A stretch of DNA of 64,000 bases from Sulfobacillus acidophilus DSM 10332 (GTDB lineage: Bacteria > Bacillota > Sulfobacillia > Sulfobacillales > Sulfobacillaceae): assembly GCA_000237975.1 (NCBI GenBank), contig CP003179.1, positions 806,001 through 870,000 of the forward strand, given 5' to 3'. Below the pieces are notes generated by a model. It saw nothing but the letters and a program-made list of their open reading frames with translations, was not told the DNA's origin and did not search any database. Below are positions 7,122-37,635 of the stretch, one piece after another. The first letter of the stretch is position 1. Each line of letters opens with the position of its first letter. The position numbers and the translations under genes were made by a program.

Positions 7122-7214
7122 ATGACTGCAGCAACTGGGAATTATATTGTTGAAATCCTGTTTTTGCTCACGTTTATCGTCGGCCTTCTGTGGCCCGCCC
7201 GGCGTCATCACTAA
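7122..7214 (+). CDS. 30-residue single-helix membrane peptide heading the cytochrome b operon
   Basis: A very short gene: ATG at 7122, stop TAA at 7212-7214, with an excellent AAAAAGGAGGG ribosome site (7104-7113). The peptide has a short polar start (MTAATGNY), one hydrophobic segment of about 17 residues (IVEILFLLTFIVGLLWP) and a basic tail ARRHH. This is the layout of small accessory subunits of respiratory or photosynthetic complexes, such as the small Pet subunits of b6f or CydX of bd oxidase; no homology to any of them is claimed. It is followed after 57 bp by the cytochrome b gene with a similar ribosome site, so cotranscription is likely. Confidence 0.72.
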   Translation: MTAATGNYIVEILFLLTFIVGLLWPARRHH

Positions 7215-7271
7215 ACGGATTGTTCCCGACGGCGGAGGCGCTTTTCTCGGTGGAAAAGGAGGGTGAGTCAA

Positions 7272-7886
7272 ATGGCCAACTGGACGGAAGCATCCAAGCG
7301 GCACTTTAGCCGGGTCATGTCGGCAGAAACCTGGCTCCCCAGCGAAATGCCGGAATATGCTCAAGGCTTTATGTACATGCTGGGGTCGCTGACGGCATCA
7401 AGTTTTGTGGTGTTGATTATTTCAGGGTTAATCTTGGCGGCCAACGGGCCCGACACCTGGTCCTATAACGGGGCCATGCGGTTTGTGGCGGCGACCCACT
7501 TCTGGGCCGTGCAGGCGTTCTTCTTCTTCATGATGCTCCACTTGTGGCGGGTCTTCTTTACCGGGGCGTGGCGAGGCGGTCGCGGCATGACTTGGCTCTT
7601 GGGAGCTATCGCTTTCATTTTGGCGATTCCCACCGCGTTTACCGGCTTTCTGATTAACGGGGACCTGTACTCTCAGTGGAACGCGGTACAAGCTAAAGAC
7701 GGGTTGAACGCGTTAGGTCTTGGATGGGTGAATCTGACCAATGCCGGCCAAATGTTCGGGATGCACGTCGCGGTGTTGCCGCTGTTATTAACGCTGGTCA
7801 TTGGCGCGCACATTACCCGGGTTCGTTTGCTCAGTGTGGTGCCGCCGTACCCGGATAAAAATGCCGGCCAAAAGGAGGGGGCGTAA
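7272..7886 (+). CDS. b6-type cytochrome b (N-terminal quinol-oxidising half)
   Basis: A 204-residue, four-helix di-heme membrane protein expected to oxidise menaquinol. Two histidine pairs for the two b hemes are visible: His76/His90 in helix B (13 residues between) and His165/His180 in helix D (14 between). The 14-residue spacing in helix D is the b6 hallmark, as opposed to bc1. The protein stops after helix D, so it is the split b6 form. Start ATG at 7272 follows AAAGGAGGG at good spacing. It lies three bases upstream of the next gene, so translation is probably coupled. No Rieske or cytochrome c gene is present in the operon. Confidence 0.88.
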   Translation: MANWTEASKRHFSRVMSAETWLPSEMPEYAQGFMYMLGSLTASSFVVLIISGLILAANGPDTWSYNGAMRFVAATHFWAVQAFFFFMMLHLWRVFFTGAWRGGRGMTWLLGAIAFILAIPTAFTGFLINGDLYSQWNAVQAKDGLNALGLGWVNLTNAGQMFGMHVAVLPLLLTLVIGAHITRVRLLSVVPPYPDKNAGQKEGA

Positions 7887-7889
7887 GCC

Positions 7890-8870
7890 ATGAGTGTGCG
7901 GACGGACGATATGGTGCATGACTACCGGATGGTTCCGGAGGATTTCGTAAAGCATCTTATGTCAACCTTGGCCATAATTGTCGTGTTGGTGCTCGCCGCC
8001 TCCATTCTGTTCGGAGTGCCGGAAAAGCAGCCGTTGACGATTCAAAGTTATGCGTCGCAAAATCCGGTCACGTTTGAGCAGGTTGTATTGCGGGCTTTGG
8101 ATGGTCAAGGGCAAATCGCCAACTATGGGCCGCCTTACAACAACGGGAACGGCAGTGTGCAGACGGTGATGCAAAAGTGGGTCGGCGTGATTCATCCGAT
8201 TAATGCGGCCCAGGACTTTGTGCTCAAACCTCTCTCGATGGCGGCCCAAGTCAATCCGAGCATTCGCCCGGCCTTAAACGCCTTTGAATCGGCACCGGCG
8301 GCGACTCAAACGCTGTGGGAAAATAATATGACCAAGGCCTTGAACAATGCTAAGGTGGTCAATGGTCAGGTCGTGGTGCCTTCGGGGAATTACGGACCGT
8401 TGCCGCAACTGTTGAACGATGCGTTGGCCCTAGGGAAAAGCGGATTAATGTCGGGGGCGTTGATTCGTAATCCCAAAGTGATTACCCGTTTTGACAACTC
8501 GAACTACCTGTTGTTCTTGCAAGGAGCGCCCTTACAAAATGACCCGCAGACCCAACCACTTGTCGGGAGCAACTGGGGTATTATCCATTCGGCGGTACCC
8601 GGCTATCCGGGAGCTTGGTGGATGACCATCCCGACCTGGATTTACCAATGGCCGTTTGTCGCCAATTCGTCGGCGCCGGACGCCACGGCTCTTAGCATCG
8701 GTTTCCTATTCTGGTTGGTCTTGGCGCTGATTCCGTGGATTCCGGGGCTTAATCGATTGCCGAAATATCTTGGGGTTTACCGGCTCATCTGGAAAGGATA
8801 TTATCAAGATCACCGGGCGCCTCAAGAGCCGACCCAAGACAAGGGGGCGTCGCATCATGCGATATCTTGA
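7890..8870 (+). CDS. Subunit-IV-like membrane protein with large extracytoplasmic insert
   Basis: A 326-residue protein I do not recognise as a named family. It has a cytoplasmic N-terminus, a helix at about residues 26-45 (TLAIIVVLVLAASILFGV), then a Pro-containing stretch and a polar domain of about 210 residues (roughly 50-260), and a C-terminal hydrophobic segment (ALSIGFLFWLVLALIPWIPG) ending in a basic tail. Its position directly after a b6-type cytochrome b suggests that it replaces subunit IV, but only two clear helices are seen instead of three. It contains no CxxCH motif and no Cys/His pattern for an Fe-S cluster. Polar, N- and Q-rich stretches fit exposure to an acidic exterior. 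Confidence 0.6.
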   Translation: MSVRTDDMVHDYRMVPEDFVKHLMSTLAIIVVLVLAASILFGVPEKQPLTIQSYASQNPVTFEQVVLRALDGQGQIANYGPPYNNGNGSVQTVMQKWVGVIHPINAAQDFVLKPLSMAAQVNPSIRPALNAFESAPAATQTLWENNMTKALNNAKVVNGQVVVPSGNYGPLPQLLNDALALGKSGLMSGALIRNPKVITRFDNSNYLLFLQGAPLQNDPQTQPLVGSNWGIIHSAVPGYPGAWWMTIPTWIYQWPFVANSSAPDATALSIGFLFWLVLALIPWIPGLNRLPKYLGVYRLIWKGYYQDHRAPQEPTQDKGASHHAIS

Positions 8871-9066
8871 GATTCGGCGGATCGTGGCTCTTTTACGGAT
8901 GATTGTCGGTAGCGTGATTGGCATCGTCGGGTTCGGCACGTTAAGTCTCGGGTTTGTTCAACTGAGCGGCGGCACCATGGGACTCGGGGTGTTGGAGATT
9001 TTGGCCGGAACCTTTCTCGCATTGGGTGTCATGGCACCCCTGCGTGTGAAGCGCAGTCATCGGTAA
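8857..9066 (+). CDS. Small two-helix membrane protein, last gene of cytochrome b operon
   Basis: 69 residues. The ATG at 8857 lies inside the end of the preceding gene (14-nt overlap in another frame), preceded by AAGGGGGCG; an upstream in-frame start at 8770 would overlap far more. Two hydrophobic segments are seen (LLRMIVGSVIGIVGFGTLSLGF and GLGVLEILAGTFLALGV, the first longer than a typical helix core) with a basic C-terminus VKRSHR. No known domain is recognised. The overlap and the terminator right after it mark it as the last gene of the operon and a likely small subunit or assembly factor of the same complex. Confidence 0.68.
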   Translation: MRYLEIRRIVALLRMIVGSVIGIVGFGTLSLGFVQLSGGTMGLGVLEILAGTFLALGVMAPLRVKRSHR

Positions 9067-9087
9067 AGGGATAAAGGTCGGCGAACC

Positions 9088-9118
9088 AAACGGGCCGAAG
9101 GATATCGGCCCGTTTTTT
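9088..9118 (+). terminator. Rho-independent terminator of the cytochrome b operon
   Basis: AAACGGGCCGA, 6-base loop, TCGGCCCGTTT with six T residues; a textbook intrinsic terminator 20 bp after the last stop. Confidence 0.88.
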
Positions 9119-9135: not shown

Positions 9136-9579
9136 ATGCGAAACGAACTGATCTATCACATTTTGCTCGTAGGCCACGTCACCATGGCTATTGCCGGCTT
9201 TATCGTGAGCGGGGGACTTGCGATTGCCGCATGGCGTCAACGGGGCAAAGCGGCTTTTTCCCCTCAATTTTGGCGATGGCAAACGCTCGTGCAAATCATT
9301 ACGGTATTGCTCGGGGCCTTTGGCCTGGGATTATTTCTAATCGGCAGCCGGCCGAAGGTTATTTGGCATCTTCTGTATGGCGCCCTCGCCCTTTTGACCG
9401 TTTTGATGCAACGGGCGGTGGGAACGGATGGGGCTATTTTGGCCGGCATGAGTGCCGGGGGCCAAGAAGCGGCCCAAGCACTGGCACCGCGCCGATTGGC
9501 TTGGGTAGTTTTTGGCTTGAACATCTTTTTATGGGCCATGTATGGCCGGGGGCTTAGCACGGGATTTTTTGGCGTGTAA
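9136..9579 (+). CDS. Four-helix membrane protein of unknown function
   Basis: 147 residues with about four hydrophobic segments and short loops. Histidines lie in or next to helices (YHILLVGH near the N-terminus and VIWHLLYG in the middle), a pattern compatible with heme binding, though this is speculative. GGGAGGGA precedes the ATG at 9136. It sits right after the cytochrome b operon terminator and 15 bp before a Crp/Fnr regulator gene. I do not recognise a named family. Confidence 0.62.
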   Translation: MRNELIYHILLVGHVTMAIAGFIVSGGLAIAAWRQRGKAAFSPQFWRWQTLVQIITVLLGAFGLGLFLIGSRPKVIWHLLYGALALLTVLMQRAVGTDGAILAGMSAGGQEAAQALAPRRLAWVVFGLNIFLWAMYGRGLSTGFFGV

Positions 9580-37065: not shown

Positions 37066-37635
37066 TTAACGGGCGTTGATGGTGCCTTCCATCCATCCCG
37101 GTGTCATCATGGGGCCCCCCATGCCGTCGAGGCCGGTCCCACACGGGGCTTCACATTGCCAGCCGTATTGACCGGGGTGGGCCGGCATGTTAAACGTGGC
37201 TTTGACCGTAATTTTGCCTCCCCGAGGAGCCGCCGGGATGACCAGGTTGAGATGCATCGCCGGAATGGTGAAGGTATGGGCGACCTCTTGGGGATTGACA
37301 TGCGAAACCGGTTTGCCGTTGACCCATTCGGTGCCGCTCGTCGTTCCCTGGACCGTCGCAAACGGGGAACCGGAGGGCAATGGAGACGGGCCGTCGTCGT
37401 AGCTCACGATGGTCAACGCGACTTTTGCGCCGACGGGAGCGGTCCAATCCGCCGGCGTATATTTGGGCCACCCGGGTTTGCCGTCCATTTTGCCGGTCAA
37501 AATGGTCATGGTACGGGCGACGGTGGTGGGGGCAGGCGCGGCCGAGGGGGCACTGCTGCCACATCCTGTCAGCCACAGGGATCCGCCCACAACGGCCAAA
37601 ACAGCGGGTAAGCGTTTTTCGCGGCCACGTTTCAT
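37066..37635 (-). CDS. COX2-like cupredoxin lipoprotein
   Basis: 189 residues. Signal peptide with lipobox LTGC (Cys25), so it is anchored outside the membrane. After a Pro/Ala linker comes a cupredoxin domain: VAHTFTIPAMHLNLVIP with the first His ligand, and a C-terminal CEAPCGTGLDGM (Cys161, Cys165, Met172) that aligns with the CuA motif CxxxCGxxHxxM, but with Leu in place of the His. It could bind a mononuclear or modified copper centre and act as an extracellular electron carrier. GGGAGGAA precedes the ATG. Confidence 0.75.
   Translation of the reverse strand: MKRGREKRLPAVLAVVGGSLWLTGCGSSAPSAAPAPTTVARTMTILTGKMDGKPGWPKYTPADWTAPVGAKVALTIVSYDDGPSPLPSGSPFATVQGTTSGTEWVNGKPVSHVNPQEVAHTFTIPAMHLNLVIPAAPRGGKITVKATFNMPAHPGQYGWQCEAPCGTGLDGMGGPMMTPGWMEGTINAR

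Follow-up and report, generated by a model that had tools for sequence, protein, structure and literature searches.

A conserved four-gene unit encoding a putative Rieske-free cytochrome b complex in Sulfobacillus acidophilus

Described cytochrome b complexes and the layout of the unit

Quinol bifurcation in cytochrome bc complexes is considered to require the Rieske protein. The b6c and b6f complexes combine a cytochrome b split into PetB and PetD with the Rieske protein PetC, and operons of this type are found in the host family itself (loci L179, L180, L182 and L187). The actinobacterial bcc complex is built on QcrB, a single chain with a canonical Qo site that works with QcrA (Rieske) and QcrC. 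ExtP belongs to the selenite and tellurite reduction operons (NF040969). For Sulfobacillus, passages of Justice et al. 2014 state that all species except AMDSBA4 have a petB-like di-heme cytochrome b, and that these non-canonical genes are present without cytochrome c or iron-sulfur protein (PMC4378227). The genes in question are very probably the same as those of the unit analyzed here. S. thermotolerans was likewise described as having a cytochrome b without a bc1 complex, with two copies counted (PMC6803676); we find three genes for the 326-aa partner protein described below on its chromosome. Judging from the S. thermotolerans paper and those passages of Justice et al., the absence of a Rieske protein has therefore already been published. 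The same passages are silent on the partner and the small subunits, on how widely the genes occur and on whether the standard operon has been lost (PMC4378227). In the open-access papers searched, we found no account of what the partner is, of a complex of four subunits, or of changes in cap and Qo motif. Nor did these papers yield the fusions, the broader distribution or evidence from synteny that the standard complex was lost. The lack of a Rieske protein was known before; new here are the make-up of the unit, the homology of its partner, its distribution and the disappearance of the standard complex.

The unit lies in a window of 64,000 nucleotides from Sulfobacillus acidophilus DSM 10332, whose genome comprises 3.56 Mb in two contigs. 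An initial annotation had proposed an operon at 7122-9118 with two tiny membrane proteins, no Rieske or c-type gene and a strong terminator at its end. All four open reading frames are found at this place and the unit is conserved in relatives. Neither a Rieske nor a c-type gene was found within it. The features are as follows.

7122-9118, plus strand: four-gene unit and terminator, with all open reading frames confirmed
7122..7214, plus strand: first gene, 30-aa one-helix protein (MTAATGNYIVEILFLLTFIVGLLWPARRHH), from counterparts in relatives and substitutions by codon position
7272..7886, plus strand: b6-type cytochrome b, 204 aa, helices A-D, from PF13631 and PF00033 matches
7890..8870, plus strand: 326-aa subunit-IV-like partner, helices E and F and no helix G, from fusion, an extended PF13631 match and a model
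7938..8030, plus strand: predicted helix E, partner aa 17-47, from hydropathy (helix 222-247 of the fused model)
8025..8612, plus strand: ef-loop insertion, aa 46-241, from conservation over 81 sequences and a model (pLDDT 83.6)
8604..8657, plus strand: Qo-like motif YPGAWWMTIPTWIYQWPF in place of PEWY, acid-free in 88/88 sequences
8673..8759, plus strand: predicted helix F, partner aa 262-290, from hydropathy (helix 469-489 of the fused model)
8857..9066, plus strand: 69-aa two-helix membrane protein, its start overlapping the end of the partner gene, from counterparts in relatives
9088-9118, plus strand: intrinsic terminator closing the unit, an 11-pair stem with a loop of 6 (stem-loop 9088-9115) and a T-run

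The genes follow each other on the same strand in the order 30-aa protein, cytochrome b, partner and 69-aa protein. For cytochrome b, the ATG at 7272 is preferred over the alternative GTG at 7263 because the cytochrome b of relatives begins with MANWT. The partner is present in 27 of 34 host-family genomes, with at most five matches per genome, which fall into two subfamilies. Cytochrome b stands directly 5' of the partner at every locus where the contig allows. The two tiny proteins claimed by the initial annotation recur as well. In 64 of 82 relatives, a reading frame corresponding to the 30-aa protein and equipped with a ribosome-binding-like site lies 5' of cytochrome b; the 69-aa protein has a counterpart at 59 of 86 loci under a crude rule. 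Substitutions at first, second and third codon positions amount to 27/14/59% in the former and 32/18/50% in the latter. This predominance of third positions indicates that both tiny reading frames are genes, and both are under selection at the protein level. By comparison among genomes, the four-gene unit is conserved and not a chance reading. A PADLOC search gave no match. Downstream of the terminator, a 147-aa membrane protein without any family match is encoded at 9136-9579, and homologs follow the unit at loci L049 and L054.

Cytochrome b and its remodeled second half

The cytochrome b at 7272..7886 is the only one in the genome. It matches PF13631 with 50 bits and PF00033 with 30 bits, and PDB searches return bcc and b6 chains. 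The heme ligand pairs are H76/H90, with 13 residues between, and H165/H180, with 14 between. The latter spacing is of the b6 type, as had been read from the sequence initially, and all four histidines are retained in 85 or 86 of 86 relatives. The unit thus has in common with b6c and b6f complexes a split cytochrome b, two bis-His b hemes, the 14-residue spacing in helix D and, by model, helices A-F. In contrast to these complexes, the unit has no Rieske protein, c heme, heme-ci cysteine, helix G or acidic Qo residue, and adds a 190-aa ef-loop cap and two tiny subunits. The heme-ci position (residue 36) carries no Cys in any of the 86 sequences; the host family's own canonical PetB has it. The best sequence and structure matches of the unit are to actinobacterial QcrB. 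Among NCBIfam models, cytochrome b matches ExtP best (64 bits, E 1.5e-17), far under the cut-off of 290 bits for NF040969. In the cd loop, 85-86 of 86 members have a near-invariant WNxVQxKD (7677-7700, aa 136-143) instead of the usual sequence; this motif perhaps belongs to a rebuilt outer quinone site.

The partner was initially described as subunit-IV-like with two clear helices and a large outside domain, and this description holds. Hydropathy identifies two hydrophobic segments, at the positions listed above for helices E and F, separated by the cap. Pfam and NCBIfam searches of the partner yielded no match, and PDB sequence searches with the partner and with its profile returned nothing. 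The search against PF00032 suggested by the initial annotation gave no match either, yet this says little because PF00032 also misses the ordinary subunit IV of the host family. A profile-profile comparison of the partner with that subunit IV was weak, covering only 20 columns at a probability of 1.9%. Hence, the homology of the partner rests on fusion, a structural model and an extended cytochrome b match. In two Ktedonobacterales MAGs, cytochrome b and partner are naturally fused into one 547-aa chain; the two are split in Bacillota. In the fused chain as well as with the split genes of the window genome, the PF13631 match extends into the start of the partner. The two genes share one frame here, so that a read-through chain could be folded. 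The resulting model, based on 47 sequences, reached a pLDDT of 75 and a pTM of 0.71, and matched bc1 cytochrome b in structural alignments of 255-306 residues (Z 20-22). The alignment spans the model from about residue 1-26 to about 508 and the target chain to about 325 in mitochondrial numbering. Cytochrome b has only 204 residues, so at least 50 of the aligned residues belong to the partner. Of the helices E, F and G found in the second chain of an ordinary complex, subunit IV, the partner therefore retains E and F and lacks G. From sequence and model, the partner appears to be a rebuilt C-terminal half of cytochrome b. We consider the structural identity of the complex well supported and hold it with high confidence.

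The ef-loop cap comprises about 190 mostly helical residues placed on the outer side, and was folded alone at the pLDDT given above. It carries the motifs YGPPYN and LFLQG and, across 81 sequences, none of its Cys, His or Met residues is conserved. Comparison of its fold with the PDB listed no relative, which by itself does not prove a new fold. The Qo position, whose equivalence to PEWY was set by its location before helix F, is of a P[GA]-x-x-W type in all 88 sequences, including PGPWW, PGAWW, PAAWW and PGAVW. None of these sequences has an acidic residue replacing the Glu, and neither P[E/D]WY nor a known variant was found in the partner. Several Alicyclobacillaceae-like members (L121, L125, L126, L128, L129 and L135) show a C-terminal extension of the partner with CxxCPLxxxC and a fourth Cys. 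Placed on the cytoplasmic side by topology, this extension may form a metal or FeS site.

Spread of the unit and the standard complex in the host family

A scan of the collection recovered 183 relatives, of which 80 were kept. They include Sulfobacillus, Ferroacidibacillus, Sulfoacidibacillus, Alicyclobacillus mengziensis and Ktedonobacterales MAGs, and most of the named hosts are acidophiles that oxidize iron or sulfur. An even draw of phylum genomes gave matches in only 6 of 398. By these sequence matches, the unit is spread over Sulfobacillaceae, Alicyclobacillaceae and Chloroflexota. Two copies of the unit lie close together in opposite orientation on one contig at L121 and L135. No conserved linked redox or carrier gene was detected in 20 neighborhoods of the unit. 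The neighbors at L044 are not a coxBAC cluster. A gene for a cydA-like cytochrome bd subunit I lies 3' of the unit on the same strand in two genomes of one genus (L048, 3932-5332; L049, from 2998).

The initial annotation called for a genome-wide search for an unlinked Rieske gene. This search was negative, with no bc-type Rieske protein encoded anywhere in the window genome. Four Rieske-domain proteins were found, all of soluble types, with genes in SUF, NADH dehydrogenase-like, oxygenase-like and hydrogenase neighborhoods. In six genomes of the host family (G001, G002, G007, G008, G029 and G030), an ordinary operon encodes a Rieske protein, PetB, and PetD fused to cytochrome c. The site of this operon is flanked by genes for an exchanger-like membrane protein and a creatininase-like protein. 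Four other genomes (G003, G004, G009 and G010) have only a solitary PetC-type Rieske gene at this site, decayed to varying degree. G009 and G010 have other residues in place of the two ligand histidines (CSFRSCP, CPCDNS), G004 has one of these histidines replaced and G003 has lost one disulfide cysteine. These solitary genes (L183-L186, in G010, G009, G004 and G003, respectively) look like relics of a lost b6c complex. At the syntenic site of the window genome, both flanking genes remain, separated by only a small open reading frame, and the three genes of the complex are gone.

The simplest reading of this synteny is that the host genome has probably lost the standard complex, whose function the Rieske-free unit may have taken over. 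Both complexes are found in G007, G029 and G030. Hence, the Rieske-free unit is not simply a replacement. G001, G002 and G008 have the standard complex only, G006 and G009 have neither, and the other combination is the Rieske-free unit alone. For the host genome, Rieske independence of the unit is well supported. With the standard complex lost and only the Rieske-free unit kept, electrons must therefore enter or leave by a route not yet described.

Candidate electron partners and proposed function

As candidate carriers for the outer face, the host genome encodes five c-type cytochromes, several of them apparent lipoproteins and one in a cytochrome oxidase cluster. None is a subunit encoded in the operon, and none of the five genes adjoins the unit. 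Sulfocyanin is absent from the host genome and, over 34 genomes, shows no association with the unit (p 1.0), so it was rejected as a universal partner. In five genomes, a sulfocyanin gene is found no more than about 15 kb from the unit; four of these genomes belong to one genus and share a similar spacing. Expression data are available for S. thermosulfidooxidans, in which Sulth_2730/2731, annotated as cytochrome b/b6 domain genes, show log2 drops of 1.8 and 1.4 in the presence of Leptospirillum ferriphilum, a stronger iron oxidizer, and fall together with sulfocyanin and cytochrome oxidase (aa3) genes (PMC6315122). The gene numbers, and where the pair and sulfocyanin are located in G018, agree with assigning Sulth_2730/2731 to the cytochrome b and partner genes of the unit. 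If this match holds, the published transcriptome would place the unit with the iron-oxidation chain.

On balance, we favor a divergent member of the cytochrome bc superfamily: a diheme b-type quinol/quinone complex of four subunits that would need no Rieske protein. The two b hemes would span the membrane, as their conserved ligands suggest. From sequence and model, the partner would contribute helices E and F, and the helical cap would stand in for the Rieske docking surface and the acidic Qo motif. The tiny subunits probably pack around the complex, perhaps in the place of helix G. Menaquinone would most likely react with the b hemes. Electrons at the outer face might pass to or from a small extracytoplasmic carrier, a c-type cytochrome here and sulfocyanin in relatives. 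The complex could either oxidize quinol or, while iron is being oxidized, reduce quinone uphill. As a tentative extension, the cap might replace the mobile Rieske head and couple quinone chemistry at the outer site directly to the outer carrier, which would define a distinct, acidity-adapted branch of bc complexes able to run uphill in iron oxidizers.

Several other readings compete with such a Rieske-free quinone complex. A dedicated uphill enzyme is possible, if doubtful: electrons from outer carriers supplied by Fe(II) would enter at the outer b heme, cross the membrane and reduce quinone on the inside, driven by the large pH gradient and without Rieske bifurcation. The lifestyle of the named hosts and expression moving with the sulfocyanin and aa3 genes agree with this, and reverse flow through a bc complex is a described route in other acidophilic iron oxidizers, according to passages of Justice et al. 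2014 (PMC4378227). However, the expression data carry no direction and depend on the proposed Sulth gene match, and the host genome has no sulfocyanin. We consider it unlikely that the unit is a mere membrane anchor or heme conduit for another enzyme, such as a dehydrogenase or oxidase, with no bc-type quinone chemistry. The rebuilt Qo motif and cd loop, the missing Rieske protein and the cydA-like genes 3' of two units would fit this role, but no catalytic gene is consistently linked across genera and the bc fold is retained over helices A-F.

It is highly improbable that the unit is an ordinary bc complex served by a Rieske subunit encoded elsewhere. The four Rieske-domain genes of the genome invite this explanation, which was rejected because all four are soluble types encoded in the neighborhoods named above; moreover, the docking region is rebuilt, and the true PetC-type Rieske protein of the host family belongs to another site and is gone here. 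Least credible is a dedicated role for the COX2-like copper lipoprotein at 37066-37635. The initial annotation had suggested a quinol-cytochrome b complex lacking Rieske protein and cytochrome c that hands electrons to this lipoprotein, and the former part is supported and the latter is not. Its weak CoxB-like match and its outer-face lipoprotein character by sequence speak for such a role. Nevertheless, its gene is unlinked to the unit; 11 of the 27 genomes that have the complex carry it, as do 2 of the 7 that lack it, giving no association across 34 genomes (Fisher p 0.68), and the CuA-like motif CEAPCGTGLDGM is incomplete, with no second histidine. The lipoprotein, with CEAPCGTGLDGM where a full CuA motif would be expected, is found in 13 of the 34 host-family genomes.

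Genomes that lost the standard complex and have only this conserved Rieske-free branch, with its rebuilt outer quinone site, would offer a natural experiment on which elements of the mechanism are indispensable. The unit is also a concrete candidate for the link between quinone and outer carrier in Gram-positive bioleaching iron oxidizers.
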